Of a stretch of 64,000 nt of DNA, positions 1,994 to 28,219 are shown one piece after another (the first letter of the stretch is position 1; each line of letters opens with the position of its first letter). Where the stretch lies: assembly GCA_032718865.1 (NCBI GenBank), contig JALUTQ010000038.1:1364001-1428000 (forward strand). The letters run 5' to 3'. Both the position numbers and the translations under genes were made by a program. This DNA is from Tilletia caries. Taxonomy: Eukaryota; Basidiomycota; Exobasidiomycetes; Tilletiales; Tilletiaceae. Below the pieces are notes generated by a model that saw nothing but the letters and a program-made list of their open reading frames with translations, had not been told where the DNA came from and ran no database searches.

Positions 1994-2703
1994 TAAGGTT
2001 GTCCCCGGAGTAACGCGGAGGGCTCCGCCTCCGCACTTCCAAATTCCGCCGGAATTTTGACTTTTTGAGGCGAGCTCCGCCTCCGCAGACTAAGACAGAG
2101 CTGAAAAAAACCAGCTCCGCGTTCCGACGGAATTATACAAAAGTTGAAATCCCAGCTCCGCGCTCCGCGTTTTTTCTGTGCGTTTTCATAATGCTCCTCC
2201 GTGCTCCGTGTATGCGGAATTCCGTCGGAGCGCAGTGGTGGTATAATTCGCTCTCAGAATGATTCTAACACAATCAGAGCTATACATTCACCATCCGACA
2301 TTGTTGCGGTATTGACCGCAGTGCTATTCTGAAGCTCTCAACGGATGATGACGCCTGTTTTATCCCCTGCGCGTGTCTCGACGATGCCTATTTTCTCGGA
2401 ATTCCGCACATTTCCGCGGAACTTGGACGGAATTCCGGCGTAGCGCACCCAAAATAAGGTCACGTGACCCCTATTCTCGACTATCACGTGACCTCACAGC
2501 TCCGTCGGAATTCCGCGGAAATTCCGCCGGAATTCTCACACAATTTTGACGACTCCGCGCTCCGTACCTTTGGCTAGTGGGCTCAGGATTGGGCTCCGCG
2601 CTCCGCGTAGATTCCGGCGGAGTCCTCCAGGCGGACTCCGTGCTTTTTTAAGATCAAAAATTTCTCAAAAGTGAGCTCCGCGTCAACTCCGGGGACAACC
2701 TTA
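1994..2703. mobile_element. hAT-like MITE, 710 bp, with 8-bp target duplication
   Basis: The ends are perfect 18-bp inverted repeats: TAAGGTTGTCCCCGGAGT at 1994-2011 and its reverse complement at 2686-2703, extending imperfectly to about 27 bp. The element is flanked by the direct repeat GAAGCTAC at 1986-1993 and 2704-2711. A related uninterrupted copy of the target lies at 2884-2921, serving as a paralogous empty site. The inside has no convincing ORF but many copies of AGCTCCGC and of the palindrome-like GGAATTCCG, resembling subterminal binding arrays. An 8-bp duplication with short TIRs is the pattern of hAT transposons; the superfamily is inferred, as no transposase is present. Confidence 0.85.
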
Positions 2704-2883
2704 GAAGCTACCCTGAAAGCGAGGCGCGATAGGCGTAAGTCTATATTGATCGATGAACTGTGGCCCGTGGGTCACCGATCAGGTATTCAGGTACGTACAT
2801 AGTACATACACATGTCACTTTACAACTTTGGGGAGATCTATCTGCATTCTGCTCATCATCTATGTTGTGTGGAAAATCATGGC

Positions 2884-2921
2884 TGAGAGCTCGAAGGGTA
2901 GCGAAGCTACCCTGAGAGCGA
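2884..2921. repeat. Second, uninterrupted copy of the MITE target repeat
   Basis: This copy reads through GGGTAGCGAAGCTACCC, a 7-bp-arm hairpin, without insertion. The copy starting at 1968 is the same but interrupted by the 710-bp element just after the hairpin loop. Weak similarity continues about 100 bp downstream of both copies, so they are diverged duplicates of a longer unit. Confidence 0.75.
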
Positions 2922-3215
2922 GTCGCGGAGGGCGTCTATGTGATTTGAATAATTGACTGTGCTTCTGGGCCATTGTTTAGGTATGCAATCCACATCCGAC
3001 AGGTCACAGCATTGAGCACGCCTTTTGAGAATTCGAGTCTAAGATATCCAGACCAAGCATCAAGCAACATCAGTCATCAAGAGTCAAGACATGCATGTTT
3101 CTTGGTACTTTTCATTTCCCGTTCATATTCCAATTTCTATAAACTCATGGCCTCCAAAAGTCTGGGGAACACTCTGGCTCAAAAGCCAGGCCGGTGGGAT
3201 GACTGTTCGAAATAA

Positions 3216-3220
3216 TCCTT
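3216..3220. other. Left outer Crypton crossover site, TCCTT
   Basis: Left flank ending CGAAATAA, then TCCTT, then the element start ATGTTCATC. The pentamer is the only sequence shared with the right outer boundary. Confidence 0.75.
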
Positions 3221-3520
3221 ATGTTCATCTGGGCCACGTCGGACCACGCCCAAATCGGGCGGACCACCGTGGTCCAAACACATTTCCGCAACTTCTCTTC
3301 CTTTTCCACCGCAGAGAAGTAACTTCTCTGCGCTTTCACTCCTTCCACTCACTGCGCAGCGGTCACGTGTCTTGACTGCCTACTTCAGTGGCTGAGCTGG
3401 CCACTGGCAGCTGGATGCCTTTCCCGTTTGAGTCGTTTTCACTGTATCTACCTGCATCATCCTTAATCAACAACGTCTTCCTTTCTGCTTTCACTTCCTG
3501 TCAGTGCCGCTGGAACTGGA

Positions 3521-6500
3521 ATGGCTCGCGGTCCGAAGTCGAAATCAAAAGGAGCTGTCGTCGGTGGCACTGTCGTCGGTGGCAATGGCACGGTGAGCGG
3601 CCCCGCCACGGTCTATACAGCGGTTCAAAATGCGACAGACTTGGCCGGCGCCGTGAACACCGCGGTCCAAAAGAAGATCGAGTCGCGGCCAAAGGGTACC
3701 TCTTCAAGCTATGACCCCAAGCAGAAGAAGTGGGCAGTGAGTAGTATCCCGATTCCCTTTCGCGTCTTTGCGATCCTGGCGGCCTGGTGGGCGGTGATCA
3801 CTATTCACTATACTGACGTTAAGTACCTCTTGCATCACGTTCACTTTGCATCCAGTCATTCTGTGCGATGCGCAAATTTGACGATGGCCGATGGGACGAT
3901 TGTTTCGGAGGCCAAGCTGCTGCTGTGGCTGCAGACAGTAATTGTGCCAACGGGGAACAGCAGGAAGCAGGAGAGAAAAGATGCGGCCGACGGTACTGCG
4001 CCGGCGAAGAACGCGTCCCTTGCTGCAAGCACAATCGAGACCTACGTCAGTGGTGTTCTCGACCTCTACAAGCAGCAGGTCTCCCTCGGCACCAATCTGC
4101 ACACCAACCCTCGAGGCGGGGCGCTCACGAGCTACATGGACTCTCTTGGGCGCGAGGAGGCGACACGGAAGCGGGATGCGATGGACGATCGACAGGGAGG
4201 AACGATCCAAGACGGCTACTCGCACCACATCTTCAGTCGCATCAACAACCACTACCTTGCTATGACCACCATCTCGTCCAATCGCTCCCGAAATCGGCTC
4301 GATCATCTGCTCACACACGCCCTCATGTCGAGAGGAGAGACTATACGTGGAGCCCAGCTCGCCGACATGTTTGTTCTGCCAATGCCCAACGAGGGCGCTC
4401 AGCTTTGCCATGCCGTTGTCCTCATTACTGCCCAGGGCAAGACGAATCAGTTCGGCCGTCTCGAATACGCCGGCTGCTTGCGGTACAAGAACGTCCTCGA
4501 ATGCCCCCAGTCCGCCCTTGCCATCTATCTGTTCGAGCGCTTCCAGTGCGCCAACGAACCTTTTTCCCTCATTTGCGCGTCGAGAGGATTGGTACCGGAT
4601 CTATCTTCTCAAGCACCAGGACCTCGGTCGCGAGGTGCCGGTCACCTATCGAATGCAGTACGACAACATGTGCAAGGTCCTGGACGCCCTTCACATTCAG
4701 AGCAGCAAGAAGACCCATCTCAACAGAGGAGGAGGTGCGCGAAGGGCGGAGGACAACGGCGCGAGCGAAGCTCAGATACGAAGAGCAGGTAGGTGGTCGG
4801 TGGAGAAGATGCAGGGGTGCTACCTAACTGGTCTTCCACGAGAGTCGATGCGCGCAATGGCCGGATTTTTCGATACATCCCGGAGGGTTTTTTTCCTGCC
4901 CAGAGGAACCACCACTCCCTCCAAGTCCCTTCAGCAGCAGATTTTTCCCAGGAGTGGACGACATTCTTCTCCAGGTCGAAACGGGCAAGCTCGAGCGTGA
5001 TCTGGCAGCCCAAGGATTCCTCAGGTTGCTTCAGTACCTGCGGGTGGTCCTGATTCAAGATGCGGTCGTACTTCGACAATCTCAGCCGCACATGCGCTTC
5101 CTCGCGCACCCGGTCTTCTCCTCCGCCGAGTTCGGCGCGTTCGCGAACGAGATGAAGCCCGCACTGGAGACTCCGGAAAAAGCCAATCTCTGTCGCCATT
5201 GTCGAGGCCCTTCCCGAGCTCACTAACTTCCTCGACACCGTCCAGACGAATCAGATCGCCCAGTCCCAGCTCGCGGAGCACACGAACGACCGGGTCGAGC
5301 AGCTGGCGGCGCTCACTCAGCAAGCGTACGTCAGCCTCAGCGGGCAGATACAGGCCGTCGCGCAGAAGCAGGTAAGGGTGATTGTCACTGTCCAGCACCA
5401 GTCTCTCCCTTCTTCTCCGCCTCCGACCTCTGGTGCGCTCGTGTCTTCCCCTCCGTCCAGCCATGCGCCTATCTCTTGGACATCGTCATCGTCTACACCA
5501 CCAGCATCAGCCTTCACCAGCAGCTCCAACAGCACCGCGAACCCCGCCAGCCCCGCCATTCCAAGTGCGCTCCTTCGCCTCGTAAGTACACTTGCTGCAC
5601 ATCACCGCATCCACGTGCTGAATCTTGCTTCCCTCCTCTTCTTCCTTCCTTCCTTCAGCAGCAGCAGCATCAGTCATCCCAGCAGCAGCAGCAGCAGTCA
5701 TCCCAGCAGCAGCAGCAGTCATCTCAGCAGCAGCAGCAGTCATCCCAGCAGCAGCGGCCTCGGCCTCTTCCTCTTGCCCTGCCGGAAAGCAGCAGCAGTC
5801 TGTCGGGCCTGGGCACAGTAAGTACAACACATCTCTCTCCGGTGCTGTGGCCTTCCAGTCTCACATATCTGACATCTCTCTGCCTTTCTGTCTTCGCCTT
5901 CAGCATCAGCCAATAGATTGCGACTATGACGAGCGCGAAGGTGAAGAAGATGTGAGTCCGCTCCCCGCTCCTTATCTCCTTTCACGTTCCTGTTCCTCCC
6001 TTCCCCTTTCCTCCATTCGTTATCTCCCGACCCCGGCCCCTGGCTCCCGGTCTGCTCTCAGTCTCTGCTCGCAGTCCGCGCTGTGCGCTGCGCGCACACG
6101 GTCGAGCTGCAAGCAGCAGATTGAGCGGCAGGCTAGGGGGAAGGGGCTGCCGGACTCTAGAGGCTGGACGACTGTGCACGCGCATGCAAGTCTCCCGGTT
6201 CTCTGTTGCAGTGCACGTGCTGCGGCTCAGCTCTTTGGAGCTCTTGGCTCTCGAACCCTCTCAATCCTGATCCTCTTCCCGTCCGTTGTTCCCTTTCCCG
6301 AGCAAGTGCTGACCCATCGTGCATACCTAATATTACCAGCTGCAAATGGTTCTGTCAACGGTTCGGCCACAAGCTCAGCATCGGCTCCTTTTTCGGACCC
6401 AACGTTTGCCCTTCCCGCGCTCCCTGGGACACTGCCACCCCCGCCACACTCTGTCCCTTCCGTGCCCATCTACCAGCTCAGTCGAAGTCTTTCGACAATC

Positions 6501-6786
6501 GCTGAGGTCTGGATGGAATGGGACGTCGGCGTGAACGGCTGTGCTTCCGTCAAAGAGCTCGAGCGCCTCTACGGGGCGAGGTGGAGACCCAGCCCCACGG
6601 AGCGGAAGTTCTTTTTCCAACAGGAAGCGACTCTGGGACGCTGTGGAGAAGCTTTCCAAGCACAGAAGGGTTGAAGGCAAGGCGGCTGCGATGGAACTGG
6701 AGCGTCGTAGGAAAATTCTCAACAAGAGCGTGGACTGGGTCCAAAAAAAACACATCTCAAGTTTGGACGAAGTATCATTGTTGTGA
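3521..6786 (+). pseudogene. Crypton tyrosine recombinase with GCR1_C domain, copy 1 (frame-broken)
   Basis: Starts MARGPKSKSKG and contains a first region ending YDPKQKKWA, an intron opening GTGAGT at 3737, the tyrosine-recombinase core, an Ndc10-II-like region, a Q-rich linker in small exons, and a GCR1_C-like end (ELERLYGARWRP). The 22-bp intron deletion happens to leave the frame open across the intron, giving a spurious continuous ORF to 4792. Compared with the other copies it is frameshifted by an extra T at 4561-4565, three extra T in two runs at 4866-4894, an extra T at 4942-4946, an extra A at 5177-5181, and an extra T at 6612-6616. It is the most damaged copy. All these are homopolymer changes, so sequencing error is possible. 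The recombinase would cut and rejoin DNA through the tyrosine; as read, this copy cannot make the full protein. Confidence 0.85.
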
Positions 6787-7990
6787 AGTGTAACCCCCTC
6801 CCTCCCCAAGTTTCCATAACCCAGTCGCTCTCACTCTACTCTCGTCCCGCACTCACTCTCTACTCTCGGTCGCTCTCTGTCTCTCTCAGGCTTCCTGATT
6901 CCGACTGTCTCGAGTCTCGTTCGCGCTCGCCCCTGTTATCTGTACATTTTTTGTATCATATTTGTCCTTGGATTGTTTACTTTACTCCTACCTCATCCGC
7001 TGTCACATTATTTGTATCCTCTTGAATCGATTTCCGCTCTATCTCTATCCTAACGCAACGCTTCTGATTGATGACCTATCCCTATCTCGATGGAAAGGGG
7101 TCGATGGAAAGGGGACCGGAGAACAGCTGTGGGCACTGGGCCGTGGAGACTGGCGTGGTTCCGCTGGCTGCAGACAGAAAAAAGAGAGAGGAAGTCAGAC
7201 AGACAGACCTTGAGGGTGATCAGTCGATCACTCGGTCCACCCACCTTGCTGGCTGCTGCGACGACGTCCTGTCCCGGTATTTATATTGCTGGTTTCGTAT
7301 TGTACAGATGACTGCTGCTGTAAGAATGAAACAGGTGAAAAATTCAGCGTACATCATCCGCTAAGCTGTTCCAATCAATCTCTCAAGTCCCAATTCCTCA
7401 GACACAGACGCTTGGTCACGCATACAGGTCCTTCATTACATCTTGTGCTTGCGCCGTCGAGAATCGAGAATCAAGCGACCCGGACCGAGGAGAGCGATGA
7501 ATCTTCTGGAAGACAGAGAGCTGAAAGAGTAAGAGAGCGCAAGGGAGGGAGAGAGACTATAGAGAGATCAAAGCAAAGATTCAAAAACGGTAGAAGTGTC
7601 AGCAAGAGCATCAGCAGAAGCTAGCAGAGCCTGAAAGGAGGGAATCAGTATCTTGATGAGGAGCAAAGAAAGAGCTGTCAGAGTGTCAGCTATGCCTGTG
7701 CGGTGAAAAGTCAAGGAGGCTCTTCCGCCCTTCCTCCGGTGAAATGATCAGTAATGAGTACGGCTGCAGCACAGCAGAGCGCAACGCAAGCCAGATAGAC
7801 CTGCCACTTGAAAGGAGGCGGCTTGTGGAAGCAGTCTGGTCTCTGGGAAGCAGACAATCCTGATGCTGATCGAAGTTAGAGGATGGGAGCAGGCTGGAGG
7901 CGTTGGTTTTTTTACGGTGAGACCACATGTGGGGTGGGCCACATGGCTGTGGTCTAGGCCACATCACCACCCTCCACCACATAGAAGCTC

Positions 7991-7995
7991 TCCTT
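7991..7995. other. Crypton copy 1/copy 2 junction, TCCTT
   Basis: Right end of copy 1 (ATAGAAGCTC) joins the left end of copy 2 (ATGTTCATC) through TCCTT. Confidence 0.8.
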
Positions 7996-8264
7996 ATGTT
8001 CATCTGGGCCACGTCGGACCACGCCCAAATCGGGCGGACCACCGTGGTCCAAACACATTTCCGCAACTTCTCTGCGCTTTCACTCCTTCCACTCACTGCG
8101 CAGCGGTCACGTGTCTTGACTGCCTGCTTCAGTGGCTGAGCTGGCCACTGGCAGCTGGATGCCTTTCCCGTTTGAGTCGTTTTCACTGTATCTACCTGCA
8201 TCATCCTTCATCAACAACGTCTTCCTTTCTGCTTTCACTTCCTGTCAGTGCCGCTGGAACTGGA

Positions 8265-11200
8265 ATGGCTCGCGGTCCGAAGTCGAAATCAAAAGGAGCT
8301 GTCGTCGGTGGCACTGTCGTCGGTGGCAATGGCACGGTGAGCGGCCCCGCCACGGTCTATACAGCGGTTCAAAATGCGACAGACTTGGCCGGCGCCGTGA
8401 ACACCGCGGTCCAAAAGAAGATCGAGTCGCGGCCAAAGGGTACCTCTTCAAGCTATGACCCCAAGCAGAAGAAGTGGGCAGTGAGTAGTATCCCGATTCC
8501 CTTTCGCGTCTTTGCGATCCTGGCGACCTGGCCGCCGATTCTCGGCGGCCTGGTGGGCGGTGATCACTATTCACTATACTGACGTTAAGTACCTCTTGCA
8601 TCACGTTCACTTTGCATCCAGTCATTCTGTGCGATGCGCAAATTTGACGATGGCCGATGGGACGATTGTTTCGGAGGCCAAGCTGCTGCTGTGGCTGCAG
8701 ACAGTAATTGTGCCAACGGGGAACAGCAGGAAGCAGGAGAGAAAAGATGCGGCCGACGGTACTGCGCCGGCGAAGAACGCGTCCCTTGCTGCAAGCACAA
8801 TCGAGACCTACGTCAGTGGTGTTCTCGACCTCTACAAGCAGCAGGTCTCCCTCGGCACCAATCTGCACACCAACCCTCGAGGCGGGGCGCTCACGAGCTA
8901 CATGGACTCTCTTGGGCGCGAGGAGGCGACACGGAAGCGGGATGCGATGGACGATCGACAGGGAGGAACGATCCAAGACGGCTACTCGCACCACATCTTC
9001 AGTCGCATCAACAACCACTACCTTGCTATGACCACCATCTCGTCCAATCGCCCCCGAAATCGGCTCGATCATCTGCTCACACACGCCCTCATGTCGAGAG
9101 GAGAGACTATACGTGGAGCCCAGCTCGCCGACATGTTTGTTCTGCCAATGCCCAACGAGGGCGCTCAGCTTTGCCATGCCGTTGTCCTCATTACTGCCCA
9201 GGGCAAGACGAATCAGTTCGGCCGTCTCGAATACGCCGGCTGCTTGCGGTACAAGAACGTCCTCGAATGCCCCCAGTCCGCCCTTGCCATCTATCTGTTC
9301 GAGCGCTTCCAGTGCGCCAACGAACCTTTTCCCTCATTTGCGCGTCGAGAGGATTGGTACCGGATCTATCTTCTCAAGCACCAGGACCTCGGTCGCGAGG
9401 TGCCGGTCACCTATCGAATGCAGTACGACAACATGTGCAAGGTCCTGGACGCCCTTCACATTCAGAGCAGCAAGAAGACCCATCTCAACAGAGGAGGAGG
9501 TGCGCGAAGGGCGGAGGACAACGGCGCGAGCGAAGCTCAGATACGAAGAGCAGGTAGGTGGTCGGTGGAGAAGATGCAGGGGTGCTACCTAACTGGTCTT
9601 CCACGAGAGTCGATGCGCGCAATGGCCGGATTTTCGATACATCCCGGAGGGTTTTTCCTGCCCAGAGGAACCACCACTCCCTCCAAGTCCCTTCAGCAGC
9701 AGATTTTTCCCAGGAGTGGACGACATTCTTCTCCAGGTCGAAACGGGCAAGCTCGAGCGTGATCTGGCAGCCCAAGGATTCCTCAGGTTGCTTCAGTACC
9801 TGCGGGTGGTCCTGATTCAAGATGCGGTCGTACTTCGACAATCTCAGCCGCACATGCGCTTCCTCGCGCACCCGGTCTTCTCCTCCGCCGAGTTCGGCGC
9901 GTTCGCGAACGAGATGAAGCCCGCACTGGAGACTCCGGAAAAGCCAATCTCTGTCGCCATTGTCGAGGCCCTTCCCGAGCTCACTAACTTCCTCGACACC
10001 GTCCAGACGAATCAGATCGCCCAGTCCCAGCTCGCGGAGCACACGAACGACCGGGTCGAGCAGCTGGCGGCGCTCACTCAGCAAGCGTACGTCAGCCTCA
10101 GCGGGCAGATACAGGCCGTCGCGCAGAAGCAGGTAAGGGTGATTGTCACTGTCCAGCACCAGTCTCTCCCTTCTTCTCCGCCTCCGACCTCTGGTGCGCT
10201 CGTGTCTTCCCCTCCGTCCAGCCATGCGCCTATCTCTTGGACATCGTCATCGTCTACACCACCAGCATCAGCCTTCACCAGCAGCTCCAACAGCACCGCG
10301 AACCCCGCCAGCCCCGCCATTCCAAGTGCGCTCCTTCGCCTCGTAAGTACACTTGCTGCACATCACCGCATCCACGTGCTGAATCTTGCTTCCCTCCTCT
10401 TCTTCCTTCCTTCCTTCAGCAGCAGCAGCATCAGTCATCCCAGCAGCAGCAGCAGCAGTCATCCCAGCAGCAGCAGCAGTCATCTCAGCAGCAGCAGCAG
10501 TCATCCCAGCAGCAGCGGCCTCGGCCTCTTCCTCTTGCCCTGCCGGAAAGCAGCAGCAGTCTGTCGGGCCTGGGCACAGTAAGTACAACACATCTCTCTC
10601 CGGTGCTGTGGCCTTCCAGTCTCACATATCTGACATCTCTCTGCCTTTCTGTCTTCGCCTTCAGCATCAGCCAATAGATTGCGACTATGACGAGCGCGAA
10701 GGTGAAGAAGATGTGAGTCCGCTCCCCGCTCCTTATCTCCTTTCACGTTCCTGTTCCTCCCTTCCCCTTTCCTCCATTCGTTATCTCCCGACCCCGGCCC
10801 CTGGCTCCCGGTCTGCTCTCAGTCTCTGCTCGCAGTCCGCGCTGTGCGCTGCGCGCACACGGTCGAGCTGCAAGCAGCAGATTGAGCGGCAGGCTAGGGG
10901 GAAGGGGCTGCCGGACTCTAGAGGCTGGACGACTGTGCACGCGCATGCAAGTCTCCCGGTTCTCTGTTGCGGTGCACGTGCTGCGGCTCAGCTCTTTGGA
11001 GCTCTTGGCTCTCGAACCCTCTCAATCCTGATCCTCTTCCCGTCCGTTGTTCCCTTTCCCGAGCAAGTGCTGACCCATCGTGCATACCTAATATTACCAG
11101 CTGCAAATGGTTCTGTCAACGGTTCGGCCACAAGCTCAGCATCGGCTCCTTTTTCGGACCCAACGTTTGCCCTTCCCGCGCTCCCTGGGACACTGCCACC

Positions 11201-11545
11201 CCCGCCACACTCTGTCCCTTCCGTGCCCATCTACCAGCTCAGTCGAAGTCTTTCGACAATCGCTGAGGTCTGGATGGAATGGGACGTCGGCGTGAACGGC
11301 TGTGCTTCCGTCAAAGAGCTCGAGCGCCTCTACGGGGCGAGGTGGAGACCCAGCCCCACGGAGCGGAAGTTCTTTTTCCAACAGGAAGCGACTCTGGGAC
11401 GCTGTGGAGAAGCTTTCCAAGCACAGAAGGGTTGAAGGCAAGGCGGCTGCGATGGAACTGGAGCGTCGTAGGAAAAATTCTCAACAAGAGCGTGGACTGG
11501 GTCCAAAAACACATCTCAAGTTTGGACGAAGTATCATTGTTGTGA
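8265..11545 (+). pseudogene. Crypton tyrosine recombinase with GCR1_C domain, copy 2 (catalytic core intact)
   Basis: Exon 1 begins at 8265; the first intron starts at the GTGAGT after KKWA and probably ends at TTAAG, after which one frame is open to 9762. This frame holds the complete catalytic set: the arginine in SRGETIRGAQLADMF, a lysine in AQGKTNQFGRL, HLNR at about 9479-9490, GRW, and the nucleophile tyrosine in MQGCYLTGLPRESMRAMAGF. The frame then breaks at a T run (9704-9708, one T more than copy 3). The next part (VETGKLERDLAAQGFLRLL to QIQAVAQKQ) is open from 9716 and has the correct A4 run at 9939-9942. In the GCR1_C exon it carries an extra T (11373-11377) and an extra A (11473-11477). 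It also has a Ser-to-Pro change (SNRPRN). This is the best template for the recombinase half. Confidence 0.85.
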
Positions 11546-12745
11546 AGTGTAACCCCTCCCTCCCCAAGTTTCCATAACCCAGTCGCTCTCACTCTACTCT
11601 CGTCCCGCACTCACTCTCTACTCTCGGTCGCTCTCTGTCTCTCTCAGGCTTCCTGATTCCGACTGTCTCGAGTCTCGTTCGCGCTCGCCCCTGTTATCTG
11701 TACATTTTTGTATCATATTTGTCCTTGGATTGTTTACTTTACTCCTACCTCATCCGCTGTCACATTATTTGTATCCTCTTGAATCGATTTCCGCTCTATC
11801 TCTATCCTAACGCAACGCTTCTGATTGATGACCTATCCCTATCTCGATGGAAAGGGGTCGATGGAAAGGGGACCGGAGAACAGCTGTGGGCACTGGGCCG
11901 TGGAGACTGGCGTGGTTCCGCTGGCTGCAGACAGAAAAAAGAGAGAGGAAGTCAGACAGACAGACCTTGAGGGTGATCAGTCGATCACTCGGTCCACCCA
12001 CCTTGCTGGCTGCTGCGACGACGTCCTGTCCCGGTATTTATATTGCTGGTTTCGTATTGTACAGATGACTGCTGCTGTAAGAATGAAACAGGTGAAAAAT
12101 TCAGCGTACATCATCCGCTAAGCTGTTCCAATCAATCTCTCAAGTCCCAATTCCTCAGACACAGACGCTTGGTCACGCATACAGGTCCTTCATTACATCT
12201 TGTGCTTGCGCCGTCGAGAATCGAGAATCAAGCGACCCGGACCGAGGAGAGCGATGAATCTTCTGGAAGACAGAGAGCTGAAAGAGTAAGAGAGCGCAAG
12301 GGAGGGAGAGAGACTATAGAGAGATCAAAGCAAAGATTCAAAAACGGTAGAAGTGTCAGCAAGAGCATCAGCAGAAGCTAGCAGAGCCTGAAAGGAGGGA
12401 ATCAGTATCTTGATGAGGAGCAAAGAAAGAGCTGTCAGAGTGTCAGCTATGCCTGTGCGGTGAAAAGTCAAGGAGGCTCTTCCGCCCTTCCTCCGGTGAA
12501 ATGATCAGTAATGAGTACGGCTGCAGCACAGCAGAGCGCAACGCAAGCCAGATAGACCTGCCACTTGAAAGGAGGCGGCTTGTGGAAGCAGTCTGGTCTC
12601 TGGGAAGCAGACAATCCTGATGCTGATCGAAGTTAGAGGATGGGAGCAGGCTGGAGGCGTTGGTTTTTACGGTGAGACCACATGTGGGGTGGGCCACATG
12701 GCTGTGGTCTAGGCCACATCACCACCCTCCACCACATAGAAGCTC

Positions 12746-12750
12746 TCCTT
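12746..12750. other. Crypton copy 2/copy 3 junction, TCCTT
   Basis: Same junction sequence as between copies 1 and 2, base for base around the pentamer. Confidence 0.8.
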
Positions 12751-13050
12751 ATGTTCATCTGGGCCACGTCGGACCACGCCCAAATCGGGCGGACCACCGT
12801 GGTCCAAACACATTTCCGCAACTTCTCTTCCTTTTCCACCGCAGAGAAGTAACTTCTCTGCGCTTTCACTCCTTCCACTCACTGCGCAGCGGTCACGTGT
12901 CTTGACTGCCTGCTTCAGTGGCTGAGCTGGCCACTGGCAGCTGGATGCCTTTCCCGTTTGAGTCGTTTTCACTGTATCTACCTGCATCATCCTTCATCAA
13001 CAACGTCTTCCTTTCTGCTTTCACTTCCTGTCAGTGCCGCTGGAACTGGA

Positions 13051-16000
13051 ATGGCTCGCGGTCCGAAGTCGAAATCAAAAGGAGCTGTCGTCGGTGGCAC
13101 TGTCGTCGGTGGCAATGGCACGGTGAGCGGCCCCGCCACGGTCTATACAGCGGTTCAAAATGCGACAGACTTGGCCGGCGCCGTGAACACCGCGGTCCAA
13201 AAGAAGATCGAGTCGCGGCCAAAGGGTACCTCTTCAAGCTATGACCCCAAGCAGAAGAAGTGGGCAGTGAGTAGTATCCCGATTCCCTTTCGCGTCTTTG
13301 CGATCCTGGCGACCTGGCCGCCGATTCTCGGCGGCCTGGTGGGCGGTGATCACTATTCACTATACTGACGTTAAGTACCTCTTGCATCACGTTCACTTTG
13401 CATCCAGTCATTCTGTGCGATGCGCAAATTTGACGATGGCCGATGGGACGATTGTTTCGGAGGCCAAGCTGCTGCTGTGGCTGCAGACAGTAATTGTGCC
13501 AACGGGGAACAGCAGGAAGCAGGAGAGAAAAGATGCGGCCGACGGTACTGCGCCGGCGAAGAACGCGTCCCTTGCTGCAAGCACAATCGAGACCTACGTC
13601 AGTGGTGTTCTCGACCTCTACAAGCAGCAGGTCTCCCTCGGCACCAATCTGCACACCAACCCTCGAGGCGGGGCGCTCACGAGCTACATGGACTCTCTTG
13701 GGCGCGAGGAGGCGACACGGAAGCGGGATGCGATGGACGATCGACAGGGAGGAACGATCCAAGACGGCTACTCGCACCACATCTTCAGTCGCATCAACAA
13801 CCACTACCTTGCTATGACCACCATCTCGTCCAATCGCTCCCGAAATCGGCTCGATCATCTGCTCACACACGCCCTCATGTCGAGAGGAGAGACTATACGT
13901 GGAGCCCAGCTCGCCGACATGTTTGTTCTGCCAATGCCCAACGAGGGCGCTCAGCTTTGCCATGCCGTTGTCCTCATTACTGCCCAGGGCAAGACGAATC
14001 AGTTCGGCCGTCTCGAATACGCCGGCTGCTTGCGGTACAAGAACGTCCTCGAATGCCCCCAGTCCGCCCTTGCCATCTATCTGTTCGAGCGCTTCCAGTA
14101 CGCCAACGAACCTTTTCCCTCATTTGCGCGTCGAGAGGATTGGTACCGGATCTATCTTCTCAAGCACCAGGACCTCGGTCGCGAGGTGCCGGTCACCTAT
14201 CGAATGCAGTACGACAACATGTGCAAGGTCCTGGCTGGACGCCCTTCACATTCAGAGCAGCAAGAAGACCCATCTCAACAGAGGAGGAGGTGCGCGAAGG
14301 GCGGAGGACAACGGCGCGAGCGAAGCTCAGATACGAAGAGCAGGTAGGTGGTCGGTGGAGAAGATGCAGGGGTGCTACCTAACTGGTCTTCCACGAGAGT
14401 CGATGCGCGCAATGGCCGGATTTTCGATACATCCCGGAGGGTTTTTCCTGCCCAGAGGAACCACCACTCCCTCCAAGTCCCTTCAGCAGCAGATTTTCCC
14501 AGGAGTGGACGACATTCTTCTCCAGGTCGAAACGGGCAAGCTCGAGCGTGATCTGGCAGCCCAAGGATTCCTCAGGTTGCTTCAGTACCTGCGGGTGGTC
14601 CTGATTCAAGATGCGGTCGTACTTCGACAATCTCAGCCGCACATGCGCTTCCTCGCGCACCCGGTCTTCTCCTCCGCCGAGTTCGGCGCGTTCGCGAACG
14701 AGATGAAGCCCGCACTGGAGACTCCGGAAAAAGCCAATCTCTGTCGCCATTGTCGAGGCCCTTCCCGAGCTCACTAACTTCCTCGACACCGTCCAGACGA
14801 ATCAGATCGCCCAGTCCCAGCTCGCGGAGCACACGAACGACCGGGTCGAGCAGCTGGCGGCGCTCACTCAGCAAGCGTACGTCAGCCTCAGCGGGCAGAT
14901 ACAGGCCGTCGCGCAGAAGCAGGTAAGGGTGATTGTCACTGTCCAGCACCAGTCTCTCCCTTCTTCTCCGCCTCCGACCTCTGGTGCGCTCGTGTCTTCC
15001 CCTCCGTCCAGCCATGCGCCTATCTCTTGGACATCGTCATCGTCTACACCACCAGCATCAGCCTTCACCAGCAGCTCCAACAGCACCGCGAACCCCGCCA
15101 GCCCCGCCATTCCAAGTGCGCTCCTTCGCCTCGTAAGTACACTTGCTGCACATCACCGCATCCACGTGCTGAATCTTGCTTCCCTCCTCTTCTTCCTTCC
15201 TTCCTTCAGCAGCAGCAGCATCAGTCATCCCAGCAGCAGCAGCAGCAGTCATCCCAGCAGCAGCAGCAGTCATCTCAGCAGCAGCAGCAGTCATCCCAGC
15301 AGCAGCGGCCTCGGCCTCTTCCTCTTGCCCTGCCGGAAAGCAGCAGCAGTCTGTCGGGCCTGGGCACAGTAAGTACAACACATCTCTCTCCGGTGCTGTG
15401 GCCTTCCAGTCTCACATATCTGACATCTCTCTGCCTTTCTGTCTTCGCCTTCAGCATCAGCCAATAGATTGCGACTATGACGAGCGCGAAGGTGAAGAAG
15501 ATGTGAGTCCGCTCCCCGCTCCTTATCTCCTTTCACGTTCCTGTTCCTCCCTTCCCCTTTCCTCCATTCGTTATCTCCCGACCCCGGCCCCTGGCTCCCG
15601 GTCTGCTCTCAGTCTCTGCTCGCAGTCCGCGCTGTGCGCTGCGCGCACACGGTCGAGCTGCAAGCAGCAGATTGAGCGGCAGGCTAGGGGGGGAAGGGGC
15701 TGCCGGACTCTAGAGGCTGGACGACTGTGCACGCGCATGCAAGTCTCCCGGTTCTCTGTTGCGGTGCACGTGCTGCGGCTCAGCTCTTTGGAGCTCTTGG
15801 CTCTCGAACCCTCTCAATCCTGATCCTCTTCCCGTCCGTTGTTCCCTTTCCCGAGCAAGTGCTGACCCATCGTGCATACCTAATATTACCAGCTGCAAAT
15901 GGTTCTGTCAACGGTTCGGCCACAAGCTCAGCATCGGCTCCTTTTTCGGACCCAACGTTTGCCCTTCCCGCGCTCCCTGGGACACTGCCACCCCCGCCAC

Positions 16001-16338
16001 ACTCTGTCCCTTCCGTGCCCATCTACCAGCTCAGTCGAAGTCTTTCGACAATCGCTGAGGTCTGGATGGAATGGGACGTCGGCGTGAACGGCTGTGCTTC
16101 CGTCAAAGAGCTCGAGCGCCTCTACGGGGCGAGGTGGAGACCCAGCCCCACGGAGCGGAAGTTCTTTTCCAACAGGAAGCGACTCTGGGACGCTGTGGAG
16201 AAGCTTTCCAAGCACAGAAGGGTTGAAGGCAAGGCGGCTGCGATGGAACTGGAGCGTCGTAGGAAAATTCTCAACAAGAGCGTGGACTGGGTCCAAAAAA
16301 AACACATCTCAAGTTTGGACGAAGTATCATTGTTGTGA
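13051..16338 (+). pseudogene. Crypton tyrosine recombinase with GCR1_C domain, copy 3 (GCR1_C intact)
   Basis: Tentative exons: 13051-13266; then from about 13376 through the recombinase and Ndc10-II-like regions to 14922; 15012-15132; 15210-15368 (Q-rich, from CAG runs); 15455-15502; and a last exon from about 15893 to the stop at 16338. The segment 15503-15892 may hide a further small exon because phases do not match. The terminal domain (SLSTIAEVWMEWDVG, ELERLYGARWRP, NRKRLWDAVEKL, ILNKSVDWVQ) fits GCR1_C, a DNA-binding domain found downstream of the recombinase in fungal Cryptons. Defects: a CTGG duplication near 14231, just before the HxxR, and an extra A at 14728-14732. The T runs broken in copies 1 and 2 are in frame here. 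A Cys-to-Tyr change lies at 14100. Confidence 0.85.
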
Positions 16339-17542
16339 AGTGTAACCCCTCCCTCCCCCAAGTTTCCATAACCCAGTCGCTCTCACTCTACTCTCGTCCC
16401 GCACTCACTCTCTACTCTCGGTCGCTCTCTGTCTCTCTCAGGCTTCCTGATTCCGACTGTCTCGAGTCTCGTTCGCGCTCGCCCCTGTTATCTGTACATT
16501 TTTTGTATCATATTTGTCCTTGGATTGTTTACTTTACTCCTACCTCATCCGCTGTCACATTATTTGTATCCTCTTGAATCGATTTCCGCTCTATCTCTAT
16601 CCTAACGCAACGCTTCTGATTGATGACCTATCCCTATCTCGATGGAAAGGGGTCGATGGAAAGAGGACCGGAGAACAGCTGTGGGCACTGGGCCGTGGAG
16701 ACTGGCGTGGTTCCGCTGGCTGCAGACAGAAAAAAGAGAGAGGAAGTCAGACAGACAGACCTTGAGGGTGATCAGTCGATCACTCGGTCCACCCACCTTG
16801 CTGGCTGCTGCGACGACGTCCTGTCCCGGTATTTATATTGCTGGTTTCGTATTGTACAGATGACTGCTGCTGTAAGAATGAAACAGGTGAAAAATTCAGC
16901 GTACATCATCCGCTAAGCTGTTCCAATCAATCTCTCAAGTCCCAATTCCTCAGACACAGACGCTTGGTCACGCATACAGGTCCTTCATTACATCTTGTGC
17001 TTGCGCCGTCGAGAATCGAGAATCAAGCGACCCGGACCGAGGAGAGCGATGAATCTTCTGGAAGACAGAGAGCTGAAAGAGTAAGAGAGCGCAAGGGAGG
17101 GAGAGAGACTATAGAGAGATCAAAGCAAAGACTCAAAAACGGTAGAAGTGTCAGCAAGAGCATCAGCAGAAGCTAGCAGAGCCTGAAAGGAGGGAATCAG
17201 TATCTTGATGAGGAGCAAAGAAAGAGCTGTCAGAGTGTCAGCTATGCCTGTGCGGTGAAAAGTCAAGGAGGCTCTTCCGCCCTTCCTCCGGTGAAATGAT
17301 CAGTAATGAGTACGGCTGCAGCACAGCAGAGCGCAACGCAAGCCAGATAGACCTGCCACTTGAAAGGAGGCGGCTTGTGGAAGCAGTCTGGTCTCTGGGA
17401 AGCAGACAATCCTGATGCTGATCGAAGTTAGAGGATGGGAGCAGGCTGGAGGCGTTGGTTTTTTTACGGTGAGACCACATGTGGGGTGGGCCACATGGCT
17501 GTGGTCTAGGCCACATCACCACCCTCCACCACATAGAAGCTC

Positions 17543-17547
17543 TCCTT
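17543..17547. other. Right outer Crypton crossover site, TCCTT
   Basis: Right end of copy 3 (ATAGAAGCTC), then TCCTT, then unrelated flank CCAGCGCCGG. The predicted empty site is CGAAATAA-TCCTT-CCAGCG. Confidence 0.75.
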
Positions 17548-17648
17548 CCAGCGCCGGCTCGTCGTCTCCGACCTGCCTTCAGTCACGTGAGCAAGGCACA
17601 GCTGGTTCGAATAAATAGATAAGAGTTTGGGATTGCCCTGTCTCACTC

Positions 17649-18244
17649 GAGTTATTTGACAGAATGCCCCTCCCTTGGGGCGAATTGGACAGAATGCCCT
17701 CCTCCACCCGATTTGACAGAATGCCCCTCCCAAAAAAACCGCAACAACTGACACACCCAGAGATCAGCATCAGCAACCAAAGAATCATCGCGGGAGCCTC
17801 AAACTTGGCATGTAGGTAGAAGGGGCTATGATCAGTCCTCTGCGCTTTTCTTGTTTGAAGTCGATTGAGCCATTATGGAGCATTCCGTGTTCAAGCAAGG
17901 GCCAAAACTTCGACATAGCTTCGTTCTCGGCCGAGAGACCCTGAGACTTCGTCTGATCTCACCAAGTCGCCTCTTCTTCGAAAGCAGATATCTCTACGAT
18001 GTACTTATAGAATGGACTCAAAAGAGATGGAGTGCGTTGAGCGTGTGCAGTAGTACACATGGTTGAGATTGCGGCGGTCTGTTTTGAGGACTTCTGGCTG
18101 TGATGGTGATGCCTGTGGCAGGGGGATATTGTGGTGTATCACGTGGTTGGTTATAGGAAGGGCATTCTGTGATCTGTCAAATCGGGTGGAGGAGGGCATT
18201 CTGTCCAATTCGCGCTGAGGGAGGGGCATTCTGTCAAATAACTC
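17649..18244. mobile_element. MULE-like MITE, 596 bp, with 10-bp target duplication
   Basis: The two ends are inverted copies about 85 bp long, starting GAGTTATTTGACAG at 17649 and ending with its reverse complement at 18244. Each arm contains three spaced copies of an ATTTGACAGAATGCCC motif. The element is bounded by the direct repeat TGTCTCACTC at 17639-17648 and 18245-18254. Long TIRs with a 9-11-bp duplication are the signature of Mutator-like elements. The inside shows no gene. Its TIR differs from that of the 5.3-kb MULE at 22,936, so that element is not its obvious source. Confidence 0.85.
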
Positions 18245-18254
18245 TGTCTCACTC

Positions 18255-19216
18255 ACTGTAACCTTAAGTTTTCCATGGTCTTTTCATGCTGTCCCTCGAC
18301 ATTCTCCAAAGCCCGGACCACCTTCAGGCGGACGGCTCTGGGCCATCGACGGCTCTGCAGCCTCGTTATACGATCCGTAGTCTCGACACTCGAACGTCGG
18401 GCTTGGCCTTGGCCGCCGACGGTCTCGCGAAATTAGGGCCAAATTCTGAGTGTACCCTTCATCGAAATTCACAAAACAGCCTCTTTTCGTTTATTATCGA
18501 AGTCGGTCGTTTCTAAGACGATTCTACTCAAAAAACTTGGAGGCTCGAGATCCTGGGCAGACGTACAATCCTTTCTGAGTGTTCGCGACAGGTTGTCAGA
18601 GTGGTTGGTGAGCTATGGTGGTGTCTGCCCGTTTTGTTTCCTGCAATTCTCGATTTTTACTATGTGATTTGACCATTTCCTCGGTTGCCACTATGAACCT
18701 ACCCTCCATCGGATTCAAGGTGAGGAAAAAAGTACATGCACTAGAGCAGTGTTTTACCGTCCCGTCAAACGTTTCTCTAATTGAGCTTAAGTTAAGCACG
18801 TGGCATCGCCTCTGACAGCTCGATTTTTCTGCCCTTCAGGAGATGATCGCTGGACACCAGACAGATGATTCAAATGAGTTGAACGTCACCAGGGTGAGAG
18901 CAGGAGGATATATCTGTATTCTGCAGGTGATTTCAGTACGATTGGTTGCGATGCGGCTTCGCTATGGTGGTGCGAAGATGCGTTAGGAATGCGAGGCCGA
19001 TGAAGGGTACAGCCAAAATCGGGCACTAATTTTGTGAGACCGCTTTCGCGCAAACGGTGTTTGACTGCGACGCGGTCTCTGTTGAGACTATACGATCCGT
19101 CCTCTCGCGAGATCTCGTCGGTGCACTTCGGGACGGCGGCGTGAACGAGCTCAGCCTTGCGAAGGGAAAAGGCAAAGTTCTTGCCCTCATCGCCTCATGC
19201 CTCATGCCTCATCTCA
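18255..19216. other. No gene recognised
   Basis: Short ORFs on both strands (for example 18615-18815) show no family motifs. A partly repeated phrase, ACTATACGATCCGT/ATACGATCCGTAGTCTC, occurs near 18366 and 19087, suggesting old repeat DNA. Confidence 0.4.
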
Positions 19217-22935: not shown

Positions 22936-25900
22936 GGACGCGCTTATATCGTCGAATCGGAGATTCCGAAAGGCAGCAATCGGCGATTGAAAGTCTTCAT
23001 TCGCCTCCCTCAACCGCAGCAACGAGCAGCGTGTCACCACTTCTGTATGTACCCAGCGTGCCGCCATCGCATATCACGCATGTCCAAGACTTTGCACCGC
23101 GTCTCGGGAAGACATGGCGCTCTCTGCTCGCTGCGCAACATGGCTGTATAGGTATCTACCACTGCTTTGTTTGCTTTGCTGTTAATCTCGTGCATTGACA
23201 GACTCTCCAGCGCTGCGGACCTGCCAGTGCTCTGCAGTCTGCTCACCGTAGTCTTCTCACCGCTCACATCTTATCTCCTGATTCCCAGGCCCTAGCTTAC
23301 TTCGTTCTTCCTGATCTTGATTGACTTCTTACCCAGTCGACAGCTCATGCTCGCCGCTGGTTGCCGTCTCAGAACTCAATCGATCTGATCTTCTTTTGCC
23401 CTTCTTCGTTCACTTCCTCACCTTCTTCTTCCACCCATTACGCTTCCACTGCTATGTCTCCTCCAGCGTCTACCGTTCACAGTGGCACACCGCCTGTCCG
23501 TTCGCCCCTGTCCTTCTACCAACGCGAACCCCTTTCAATCAACACAAAATTTCGTCCGACGACGGGGAAAGTAGTCCAGAACTCCAGAGGGCAGAATCCA
23601 GTTAATCTGTCAGGCATCAGGGTACTAATCACTGTTAAGCAGCACTGTTAAGCAGTCGGAAGTATTTGGGTTTTTCTTTCTTTGACATCAGAGCGAAAGT
23701 GGTGTATCTTTCCACCCCGTCAACATAGTGAATAGATGCTCACGCTCACAAGTCACATCCATTTCCTTTCACAGTATAGAAATACCCAAGAGGTCTCTGT
23801 CCGCCGCATCGTTGCTCCCTACTCTGGAACTCAAGACGGGGAAGAAGGTCGACAGTCGAGACGACCGACAGACAGAAGGGCTTATGAGTCTTGATCGAGA
23901 CCAGCGGTATATGTTATCTTTCTTAACATATCCCATCACCCATGCGTACCAGCGTACTCCCAATAACCTCTCCCAGTTAATGGATTTCAACACACTTGCG
24001 GGCATCCAGACGAGACCAATGGTGAGGACTGCCGACCAGTAGAAGAGGACGGCAGCCAGGCAGACAAGGAATAATAACAGAAATAAATTACGGATCACAG
24101 TAGCCCAAGAGCGATACAAAAATTGCAACTATGCGCACAGCCGATTCATCCCCTGAGATTCAGAAGGCAGGGGGGGGGGAGTATGCTGAAGATTGAGTCG
24201 TTTGAGACAGAGCGCAGGCGGCAACGAGACGTCGACGAGAGTGGGTAATGGGTTATGGAGCCTGCGTATCTTGGTTCCTGCTGTTGAGGACGGAGAACGA
24301 GAACACGGGGAGCGGAGACTGCACCTGTGACTCTGTGTGCCATGGAGAAAGGTTCAGCTAAAATTGAGATCAGGACACAGCGAGCAAAAAGACAGAGTCG
24401 AAGTGGATAGGCGTGAAGCTATATGCCGAGCGTGCCATGCTGGAAAGGAAAGGGGTGGGGAAGGCCGTAACTCACAACTCACTCGGCTGTAGCGTATATG
24501 CCTGCGTGACACAGCGGCGGGAGCGACTTCACTTCAAGACTGTTGTTTCGCGTGGGCGCATGGCTAGAGCTTGATTGACACCGGTCCGGGGACGACGCGT
24601 GCGTCCCGAGTGCTGAAAAAAGAGAAGAGGGAAAGGAAGAGCGGCCGGGCGGGAGCGGGGCAACCGCAAGTCGCGAGCAATGATGAAAGGGAGCTGCGCG
24701 AGAAGTCTGCGCGAGAAGTGAACAAAGCAATCAAGCAGGTCAGCAACAGAACCTGGGGGACGACCGGTCAATGGAAGACATACCAGTGCCGTTTGCGATT
24801 GCACTGCATATGGAGTCTGAGAGGCAACGACGAAGGTGTGGACAAGGTCTGGGCAAGGGGCCAAGGGCTGGGAGCCCGAAAGGAGAATCAACGGGGCGCG
24901 GGCGAGGTGAAGATGTGGTCGCCTGTTGGTGAACCTGCGAACCGTACCCGCCTTGATCTGTTGCTCCAGCTCAACTAAGGCACCACAACTGATGACGCAA
25001 GTAACGGGACATGCCAATTCAAGGTTCAGATACAACCAGTGACCACAACCACGCGCTCCACATGTATCAACTCACCAAAGCTAGATCACTGCCTGTTGTG
25101 CATCGGTCTAAGTTGCACAATGTCGGTTAATAGATGTCGAACGACCTCCAGACGACTGACCAGCTCTGCTGCCGTATCTCGACTGCACGTGAAGGTCTGC
25201 CGATTAAGCTGAGAGCGCAACTCCTCTCCCAGAGTGTGAAGCCGGGCTATTTGGTCCAGTCCGCGCAACAGGGTCTGATCGCGCTCGATGCGGGTGCGCT
25301 CGATGTCACCCTGCGCAGCCTCTCCGACTCTGAGAGCAATCTCTTGCGATGCTGCTGCCGATATCGCCGAAGCAGCCTCTCCTCTGATTGCGTGGGAGAT
25401 GGAGGGAAGTGGTGCAGGCGCTGAGAGTGGGGGTGAGGCCAATGTCGCCGAACCGTCCTCTCCAATTTCCGGAGAGGACAACGGCGATGATGAGGGGAGG
25501 GGCAGTGGTGCTGGTGCTGAGAGCGCTGGGAGTGGGAGCGCAGCTCGTGGTGGAGGCGGTGCTGGAGGCCCGAGTGCTGCTGGTGCTGGGGGTCCGAGTG
25601 TTGCTGGTGCAGGGGGGTCTGGCGGCGCTGCTGCTGATTGTGCCAGTGCTGGGGGAGGAGGAGGGAGTGGGAGAACTGCTAGTGCCGACGCTGGGGGTGG
25701 GAGCGCTGCTGGTGCTGGGGGGGCCTGGGGGAGGAGGTGGTGGTGGCACCCGTGCTGGTGCTGCATCGGCAGCCGACCCTAAGACAGGTGGAGGGGCCGC
25801 GTTGATAGGCCCTCTGAGCGGAGCGGGGAGGTTGCCAACTTTGGGCTTCCTGGAAAACTGCGCCAGAGGCAAACCAAGGACACGATGCGCGAGCCACATG

Positions 25901-28219
25901 TGCTTGCAGGGAAACGTCCGCATGCGGAACGCTTCGCAGGAGCAGGATACCAACTCGGCTTCGTCCCCAAGGACGTCCATGCGATGCTGAAGTCGGTATT
26001 CTTGACCAGATGACGAGAAAGACTTCACCGTGATGGAATCGTCTGTGTCATGGACCACCAACGCCTGAGCGTTCAAGAAGGTGACGGCGTCGGCGTGCTT
26101 CTTTGCGTCGCGATCCGCTTTACTCAGCGCGCACGACTGAAGGCCAAGGCAGACCCTCAGCTCGCTGGCTCGGTGATCTTGAATGCACTGCTTAAGTAGA
26201 AACCAAAGTAGGACGTCAACACCTTGTTTGCGCATGAGCCCGAGGTAGACGGACTTGAGCTGGTTGTGCCATGATTCAATGAAGTTGTTCGTGTCTACGC
26301 CCCGATGCGACATTGTCCGCCACGCTCTCGCCCACATCGCCCGTTGCGGGAGCCATTCCTTCTGAATATATGCTTGCCACGCGGGGCAGCAACTCCATGT
26401 CTGCAAGTACGCCGCTGCTTGCGTTTCGAATGCTGCCTGATCCGGAGCGTTCATCAAGACGATGAAAGATTCTCGAGCCTCCTTTTTGAGCCAGCTGGTT
26501 GGCAGCAATCTTTTGAGCGCCGCGGGTATGTTGCGAATGTCCGCGAACCTTCTTCTTGCTTTGATCTGACATTGCCTTCAACATATGCCAGTCGCAAAAC
26601 AGGACCGTAGGAAGGTTGTCTGGCGGATATGCCATTCGTATGGCGCTGAGTTCCGTAGAAGAGCAATCGATCATTATCTGCTTCGGAATGAACCGCACTC
26701 GAGGATCTCTGCGGAGGGCTTGTAGCCAGAAAACAATGGGCTGAGCATGCTCGCCATTCGTCAGCATGAACGCGGCAGGAATTCCTCGCCCAGTGATTGA
26801 GCTGCGCACAACCAGGCTGTACAACCACACCTTCTCCTTATGTTCGAAGCCGAAGCACGTGTTGTGGGTCGCATCCAGGGAGACGATGCTGTCGTGGCCG
26901 TGCATCAGAAGCATTTGCTTTTGCCAACTGGTCATGAAGCAAGCCGCCCACGTGGCCTCGCCCACCGCACAAGGAATGTCCGTTTTCACTGCCGCCATAC
27001 CACCCTCCTCCTCAATTTCGACCGCCCACTTTTGCAGACTCTCCTTGCGATCGGTGGCCTTCCGTGCGACTTTGAGTAGCTGCTTCCTCAGCTCGTTGTA
27101 GACGTCCATTCGTTTGACGCGAAGAGCCTCCGGCAGCATCTCCAATCCATCCACTCCCTTCTCCAACCTCTCCAGATCCCCCTCGTCCAGCCTCAACAGG
27201 TTCCGAATAGCCTTCCAATCTCTTCCCTCTGACACACGATCCCGAATCCAATGCCTAACCCGTGCAGGAAGTCTCGATTCCGCCATGCTGGCGATTGAGG
27301 TGACGGTGTGACCACTGTGAGCGTGTGACCATTTGACAAAGATGCGATCGTCGCCAAGTCGTTGCCACGAGACGAATCTTGCGCGGCAGTTCACCTTGAT
27401 CGAAGGCAGCCGCTTTCGTTTCTTGGATGGGCTGAGATCGGTATTGCGCTTGGATGGTTCCGGCTTGCCTCCATGATCGCAATCGTGTCGATGCCTCCAA
27501 ATGAGAAGATGAGACGGAGGCATTCGTCCAATGTCGTCCAGATGAGATATTTGCCGGGCGTTTCCGGCGGCTGCGCCTTCTTCCGCCTCATCTTCAGAGA
27601 ACCCCGCAGTACCTCGCCCACGCGCAGCATCTTCCGCCAGCAGAGCCGACGCAACCCTGTCATCCTCATCCACAATGCCATCCAGATCGTCTTCAACAGC
27701 TCCATCCGCACGTCTTCCTGTTGGAGTATCTCTTGAAGCTTCTGCGGCCGGAGCTACGTCGCTTCCGCCAACCTTGTCGCGTCTTTTTGAGTATCCAAAC
27801 GCCCGGTAACTCCGCCATCCATGTTTGGTATTCCTTCTCGTTGTCCAATACCATCCATACGTTCCCTTTTTGATCTGGGGCAAAGGGGAGATGTTCTTGC
27901 AAGGATCTGCAGAGGCGCAGACTCACAGATCCAAGTGTATTCGCCATGGGTGCGCAGGCGCGTGAGTCGTGACGCGTTTGCGCGTTCGCGTAGGAGCACA
28001 AGTTTGAGGAGTATTGAGGACGTGAGGAGACAGCGAGTACGCGCTGGCGGGCCGGAAAGAGCGAGAGGACCTATGGAAGGCAGGAGAAGGGATGCGGGAC
28101 GCGTCCAGACGCGTCTGCTGCTCTCTCGTCTCATCTCATCTCAGCGTCACCACGTGACGGACAAGTTTGGCAGAGAGCGCAAATCGCCGAACCTCCGGTT
28201 CGACGATATAAGCGCAGCC
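22936..28219 (-). mobile_element. Mutator-like element (MULE), 5.3 kb, with TIRs and target duplication
   Basis: Imperfect terminal inverted repeats of about 27 bp: GCGCTTATATCGTCGAA near 22940-22956 and its reverse complement near 28199-28215, followed inward by similar CGGAG-TTC bases. Direct repeats GTTGTATG lie outside both ends (22928-22935 and 28221-28228), giving an 8-9-bp target duplication. The right half carries a MULE transposase on the minus strand. The left 2.1 kb (22,960-25,080) has no recognised gene; a 119-aa hydrophobic ORF at 23769-24128 on the minus strand is unidentified. The element lies between the permease and the SYLF-SH3 gene without interrupting either. Confidence 0.82.
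25086..28001 (-). pseudogene. MULE transposase with SWIM zinc finger (frame-broken)
   Basis: Reading on the minus strand, the N-terminal piece (to about 27790) contains DNEKEYQTWMAELPGVWILKK. The frame then shifts into a long ORF (to 26276) with HRHDCDHGGK, a helical region ARVRHWIRDRVSEGRDWKAI, and the DDE core: VSLDATHNTCFGFEHKEKVW, GRGIPAAFMLTN, IMIDCSSTELSAI, VLFCDWHMLKAM. A second shift at an A5 run near 26490 leads into FIESWHNQLKSVYLG and the SWIM finger CSCEAFRMRTFPCKHMWLAHR. A third shift, at a G7 run near 25717, leads from a Pro/Ser-rich tail into a coiled-coil end (ALRVGEAAQGDIERTRIERD). In-frame the protein would exceed 900 aa, normal for fungal MULEs. The breaks at homopolymers could be decay or sequencing error. 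The N-terminal join is the least certain. Confidence 0.8.

Follow-up and report, generated by a model that had tools for sequence, protein, structure and literature searches.

Three head-to-tail Crypton copies in Tilletia caries and their probable origin by repeated integration at a CCTT core

The window considered here is a 64,000-bp stretch of the Tilletia caries genome (contig JALUTQ010000038.1, labelled C33 below, positions 1,364,001–1,428,000 of the forward strand). Its positions 3216–17547 are occupied by a head-to-tail array of three near-identical 4.8-kb copies of a Crypton, a transposon whose discovery paper is reportedly that of Goodwin et al. 2003. The features of the array, in window coordinates, are as follows.

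3216..7995, plus strand: Crypton copy 1, 4780 bp including both joints
3216..3220, no strand: left chromosome/element joint, T plus the core CCTT (3217–3220), the core being narrowed by dispersed copies
3883..3896, plus strand: 7-bp duplication of copy 1, with counterparts in copy 2 (near 8649) and copy 3 (near 13435)
4082..5133, plus strand: recombinase-like domain of copy 1, NDC10_II matches spread over several frames
6471..6620, plus strand: GCR1_C domain of copy 1, partial match (50 of 80 positions)
7900..8085, no strand: GACCAC/GGCCAC-type motifs clustered to the left and right of an internal joint, candidate arm sites of the recombinase
7991..7995, no strand: internal joint 1, the right end of copy 1, the core and the left end of copy 2
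7991..12750, plus strand: Crypton copy 2, 4760 bp including both joints
8848..9895, plus strand: recombinase-like domain of copy 2, with the RGE, GKTN, THLNR, GRW and CYL motifs in a single frame
11232..11381, plus strand: GCR1_C domain of copy 2, partial match (50 of 80 positions)
12746..12750, no strand: internal joint 2, the boundary of copies 2 and 3
12746..17547, plus strand: Crypton copy 3, 4802 bp including both joints
13634..14684, plus strand: recombinase-like domain of copy 3, frame broken by a 4-bp duplication
16024..16263, plus strand: GCR1_C domain of copy 3, 80 of 80 positions
17543..17547, no strand: right element/chromosome joint, TCCTT boundary

The left flank of the array reads AAATAA-TCCTT-ATGTTC, both internal joints read AGAAGCTC-TCCTT-ATGTTC, and the right flank reads AGAAGCTC-TCCTT-CCAGCG. 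The initial annotation had described a triple array at 3216..17547 whose four boundaries share TCCTT and nothing more, and both points hold: the pentamer stands at 3216–3220, 7991–7995, 12746–12750 and 17543–17547, and it is the longest sequence common to the left flank, the two internal joints and the right flank. In the 38.1-Mb assembly of 40 contigs, which was the genome searched, the 22-base internal joint AGAAGCTCTCCTTATGTTCATC has two exact matches, both within the array; two additional matches, with three mismatches each, lie outside it.

The sequence supports the assignment of the array elements to the CryptonF-type DNA transposons. In five reading frames of the element, the sole Pfam families matched are the recombinase-like NDC10_II (E 7.3e-39 in copy 2) and GCR1_C (E 9.9e-23 in copy 3), which bears out the Crypton identity proposed from the letters. 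The Crypton passages of Kojima and Jurka 2011 (PMC3212892) describe this combination for CryptonF of fungi and oomycetes, together with terminal direct repeats of 4 or 6 bp, and note that Cbf2 (Ndc10) resembles the CryptonF recombinase domains in its central part. The array element likewise has a recombinase domain, GCR1_C and short terminal direct repeats, as CCTT is found at both ends of the array and of the dispersed copies of the same family on contigs C3 and C40.

The RGE, GKTN, THLNR, GRW and CYL motifs are conserved between the array family and paralogous loci of the same genome, with about 48–63% protein identity over the aligned pieces. RGE, THLNR and CYL are found in the dispersed copies L001, L002 and L034 and in the paralogs L008, L009, L011, L012 and L015; in L033 the RGE stretch is deleted, and in copies 1 and 3 of the array the three motifs are present only across frame breaks. 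We assume that the conserved motifs hold the catalytic R-H-R-Y residues of the tyrosine recombinase signature. No Pfam match to the Starship captain domain PF11917, nor to the reverse transcriptase characteristic of DIRS and Ngaro elements, was obtained with the five frames of this 4.8-kb element. The single inverted pair of at least 60 bp in window positions 1–24000 (17649/18173) lies outside the element, short terminal inverted repeats not having been searched separately. The Rfam scan of positions 2000–19000 gave no match, and an rRNA repeat was rejected, five loci being without an Rfam match.

The crossover core itself is shorter than that suggested by the array. Dispersed copies of the array family are present on C3, C35 (two copies) and C40. 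Their left ends read gggCCTTATG (C3), cgaCCTTATG and agaCCTTATG (C35), and ccaCCTTATG (C40), so that CCTT is preceded by g, a, a and a, respectively; the right ends on C3 and C40 read CTCTCCTT and are followed by unrelated flanks. Since CCTT alone is common to all sites read, we take it as the core, and the internal joint becomes AGAAGCTCT-CCTT-ATGTTC. Hence the TCCTT core of the initial annotation stands as the sequence shared by the four array boundaries and is rejected as the core of the family; the T preceding CCTT in the left flank of the array is probably a coincidence.

The flanks of a dispersed copy were joined at one CCTT, and the joined sequence was searched in the assembly. For the C3 insertion, it is found uninterrupted at C3:34760, C33:1247626 and C21:1093439 (99, 98 and 89% identity over 513–524 of 524 bases). 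These paralogs, L063, L064 and L065, align without gaps around the joint, with 123/124, 122/124 and 112/123 identical bases. For the C40 insertion, matches are seen at C36:1722970 and C36:1729255 (L068 and L069; 96 and 95% over 400–401 query bases) and at C4:997934 (the more diverged L073; 86% over 308 query bases). Both C36 relatives have 123/124 identical bases around the joint and one gap 22 bases to the left of it, and the C4 relative has 91/101, one gap and a single CCTT. Because all six empty-site relatives align across the joint, these insertions added the element and one CCTT without any loss of sequence. Thus, conservative integration at the core, as initially claimed, receives direct support for two dispersed copies, each with three single-CCTT paralogous empty sites; the confirmation covers these two insertions.

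Two other candidates were set aside. The right-end fragment at C40:1533523 is not a separate insertion: over 745 bp it duplicates, at 99%, the end of the other C40 copy together with its flank. The closest relative of the left flank of the array, L038, is not an empty site, as its similarity stops at window position 3200 and does not extend to the right flank. The right flank at 17548–17648 has no second copy in this assembly, and the left flank at 3201–3219 is too short to decide.

The history of the array was considered by comparing substitutions in six aligned copies, namely the three array copies and the dispersed copies on C3, C35 and C40. The array copies differ from each other by 4, 6 and 4 substitutions, and from the dispersed copies by 25–27 (C3), 51–53 (C35) and 107–111 (C40); further, 11 substitutions are fixed in the array relative to all three dispersed copies. 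The array is hence the product of local amplification from one founder. Of the seven substitutions variable in the array, none is shared by two copies: three are found in copy 1, one in copy 2 and three in copy 3. The larger indels among the array copies are of 31, 22 and 4 bp, that is, a 31-bp deletion in copy 2 near 8064, the absence of a 22-bp stretch from copy 1 near 3777 and a 4-bp CTGG duplication in copy 3 near 14231; many homopolymer indels of one to three bases occur besides, several of them insertions in copy 1. With 4–6 substitutions and indels between them, the copies are not one assembled copy simply repeated. The six-copy alignment also shows several insertions of 7 to 9 bp, each confined to a single copy or to the array, which recall the footprints of other transposons.

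The 7-bp duplication is absent from the three dispersed copies aligned and shifts the frame ahead of the recombinase domain. Open recombinase frames are retained in the dispersed copies on C3 (684 codons) and C35 (657 codons). As the founder of the array already had this frameshift, another copy may have supplied the recombinase; provided that the duplication is genuine, the array was amplified either with a recombinase from elsewhere or by ordinary recombination. An ATG is also brought into frame with the domain by the duplication (MADGTIV), and a shortened recombinase may be made from it. Ten sites of the alignment show homopolymer runs that are longer in one or two array copies than in any of the three dispersed ones. 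In our reading, these runs reflect poor consensus polishing of near-identical repeats, and part of the frame breaks are such insertions; the dispersed copies, too, bear one-base indels of their own.

The joints are flanked by motif clusters. In the outer 90 bp of copy 3, CCAC/GTGG occurs 5 and 9 times at the two ends, against 0.74 per 90 bp and a maximum of 3 in the interior, and the end counts are similar in all six copies compared (4–5 and 8–9). In the three families with joints described here (the array family and those of C25 and C39, see below), the best 5-mers shared by both sides of the joint are ACCAC, GGCCA and AGTCC. The observed counts were reached in 0 of 2000 shuffles in each of the three families for 5-mers, and in 0, 0 and 3 of 2000 for 6-mers; these were single-base shuffles, and the three families may be related by descent. 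The family-specific clusters flanking the core are likely recombinase binding arms.

The Pfam search for NDC10_II in the assembly yielded 121 matches, which form 82 recombinase loci. Twelve pairs of neighbouring loci are less than 7 kb apart, with about 1.2 expected for random placement, and 11 of the 12 are on the same strand, although pairs inside one array are not independent. The close pairs form eight clusters, three of which had their joints checked: the C33 array and those on C25 and C39.

On C25, recombinase matches are at 2714, 8685, 14653 and 20623, the family unit being 5.97 kb. A 2-kb probe compared with the assembly crosses the joint AACACG-AAAACTCTGA-GGGTTCC at three places and at the contig start (there from query position 368 on), while single copies of the family (98–100%) stop at query positions 894–898 or begin at 883–891. 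The exceptions are one copy truncated at 1441 and two that are more distant, at 84 and 88%, and end at 901 and 896. The contig begins inside its array, which contains at least four full units and one partial unit at the contig edge, that is, at least five copies. The units match the probe at 100% and the single copies at 98–100% (rounded values), by which closer kinship among the units inside the array is only suggested.

On C39 there are two copies of a 4.48-kb family, 4476 bp apart, and a 201-bp probe of their joint is found whole only there. At the ends of the family on C13, on C27 and at the array edges, left ends start at 66–68 and right ends stop at 70–71 of the probe, so the core should lie within ACAACA; an additional partial match (87%) is on C40. 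The internal joints of both arrays thus coincide with the ends of single copies, and arrays recur in at least two other Crypton families of the genome.

Two more clusters were judged by spacing: C12 with three copies 5687 and 5677 bp apart, and C4 with two copies 5774 bp apart. In C12, the GCR1_C matches are 5723 bp apart, slightly off the recombinase spacing, and the C25-family right-flank motif occurs once, at the right edge. On each of C3 and C36, one C25-family copy lies beside a different recombinase locus, and these neighbours are possible mixed arrays. The only pair of opposite orientation within 7 kb is on C23, at 182958 (minus strand) and 188909 (plus strand). Near-identical 3.5-kb loci on C31 (60842 and 73725), C26 and C1 hold a Crypton recombinase shortened at its start; 12,883 bp separate the two C31 loci, and contig C26 measures 12,888 bp. 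A Crypton array is unsupported as an explanation of this 12.9-kb repeat, as the recombinase match begins further in than that of L008, L009 and L011, and no overlap is seen between the two C26 ends sampled.

The C25 family also appears to have a preferred target. All six right ends read, the array edge included, continue with (A/G)AAGAGTTCGGGGAA, after which the flanks diverge. The assembly contains 21 exact matches to CTCTRAAGAGTTCGGGG and four with one mismatch; the reversed control gives none. Eleven of the 21 sites are within 5 kb of a recombinase locus, and that at C33:768195 abuts a C25-family right end. The remaining nine have neither a recombinase match within 5 kb nor a known right end and could be empty sites or defective copies. 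CTCTRAAGAGTTCGGGG looks like a preferred, partly palindromic target of the family.

We propose that the array arose by tandem site-specific integration at the core beside a resident copy, and we put the probability of this at roughly 0.78. One element would first have integrated conservatively at a chromosomal CCTT, by analogy with the two dispersed copies for which matching empty sites exist. At the core adjoining this resident copy, excised circles from the same lineage, or else a single multimeric circle, would then have been integrated, which would explain why every internal joint consists of a right end, CCTT and a left end. The clusters of motifs next to the core would serve as the binding arms, the recombinase would perhaps be supplied by another copy, and unequal exchange may later have altered the copy number. 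In at least two further Crypton families of the genome, the same process would have been at work. In sequence, serial integration, integration of a multimeric circle, and one site-specific event followed by unequal exchange look alike, and repeated use of the core is the best reading.

Several observations weigh against this proposal. The recombinase frame is broken in all three array copies; some homopolymer insertions are common to copies 1 and 2 and others to copies 1 and 3, which fits no simple tree of the copies; and the array copy number is that of the assembly. Neither a circle, nor an excision, nor the empty site of the array itself was observed within this one assembly. AlphaFold, given the single recombinase sequence, produced no usable fold (mean pLDDT 34.9), and a sequence search up to E 10 gave no relative of solved structure. 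Finally, the C35 copy at 1.22 Mb has a right end without CTCCTT; its flanks are rearranged relative to the paralogs L076 and L078, hence this copy is uninformative and was rejected as a counterexample.

The strongest alternative, with a considerable though minority chance of being right, is that a site-specific step or a dimeric circle produced only the first pair, and three copies then resulted from unequal homologous exchange. Exchange between long direct repeats, by which two copies are known to become three, preserves the joints, which would therefore look unchanged, and the near identity and common grouping of the array copies, as well as their few private substitutions with no order among them, agree with it. 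However, exchange by itself cannot make the first pair, as a single insertion is flanked by a repeat of just 4–5 bp.

An assembly artefact, with one chromosomal copy and reads from circles or other copies unrolled into an array, is improbable. The longer homopolymer runs in one or two array copies at the ten alignment sites could be taken in its favour, and the start of contig C25 within its own array demonstrates that such arrays are hard to assemble; however, the C33 copies differ in their substitutions and in the three larger indels of 31, 22 and 4 bp, and the DNA that was sequenced must have contained the joint. The weakest alternative, a recombinase-independent microhomology duplication (replication slippage or end joining) between TCCTT repeats flanking one insertion, would yield identical joints and agrees with TCCTT on both sides of the array, but it is very improbable. 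There are 63,764 five-base microhomology pairs in a one-copy locus from which a 2–8-kb duplication could result, so that a chance hit on the element ends in three families is very unlikely, and in each of the three arrays with joints examined the joint falls at those ends.

There is also a wider and more tentative idea, to which we give somewhat less than even odds: the Cryptons of this fungus would multiply in place, a recombinase acting in trans would keep inserting circles beside resident copies, and arrays would be a normal stage of the life cycle, with the motif clusters as binding arms and with mixed arrays possible among subfamilies sharing core and target.

In the part of the CryptonF account that we rely on (PMC3212892), excision as a circle and integration elsewhere are proposed, and the mechanism, with its circle and short shared core, is a proposal made from the element ends and a bacterial analogy. 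Unlike that part of the account, the present data contain arrays in three families and conservative integration documented by empty sites. Repeated site-specific integration leading to head-to-tail arrays of up to six copies is described, in the portion of PMC2297512 considered, for SGI1, a bacterial tyrosine-recombinase island. As in SGI1, an attP-type joint lies between the copies of the array; unlike SGI1, which is bacterial, mobilizable between cells and has an 18-bp attP, the element described here is a eukaryotic transposon with a 4-bp core. With the Starships, as characterised in the relevant passages of PMC12134995 by their captain tyrosine recombinase, it shares being a fungal tyrosine-recombinase element with short direct repeats; Starships differ in being often large and cargo-bearing, with the captain domain PF11917, whereas here a 4.8-kb element carries NDC10_II.

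Among the matches listed in a literature search at the level of titles and abstract openings, we found no head-to-tail arrays of Cryptons, and the Crypton passages of PMC3212892, PMC7175516 and PMC12134995 mention no array. Tandem arrays were thus already known for bacterial islands, and Crypton arrays seem to be without precedent in the literature searched to this depth. Within one genome, occupied sites can be compared with empty ones, attP-type joints are preserved in the arrays of three families, and candidate arm motifs are at hand; the cutting position, mobilisation in trans and the gain of copies by a cut-and-paste element thereby become testable. It also gives a warning that Crypton arrays can be misassembled or miscounted.

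Other features lie on both sides of the array. To the left of it, positions 2214–2682 are a high-copy repeat with at least 38 other matches at 94–100%. A short element with 72-bp inverted ends (96% complementary) occupies 17649–18244, beginning 101 bp to the right of the array, and has relatives at several other places (95–98%). Further to the right, two overlapping frames at 25306–27883 (minus strand) have weak SWIM and ZSWIM RNaseH-like matches under the curated cut-offs and perhaps represent a Mutator-like transposase. A 940-codon frame with a reverse transcriptase domain is located at 43175–45997 (minus strand).

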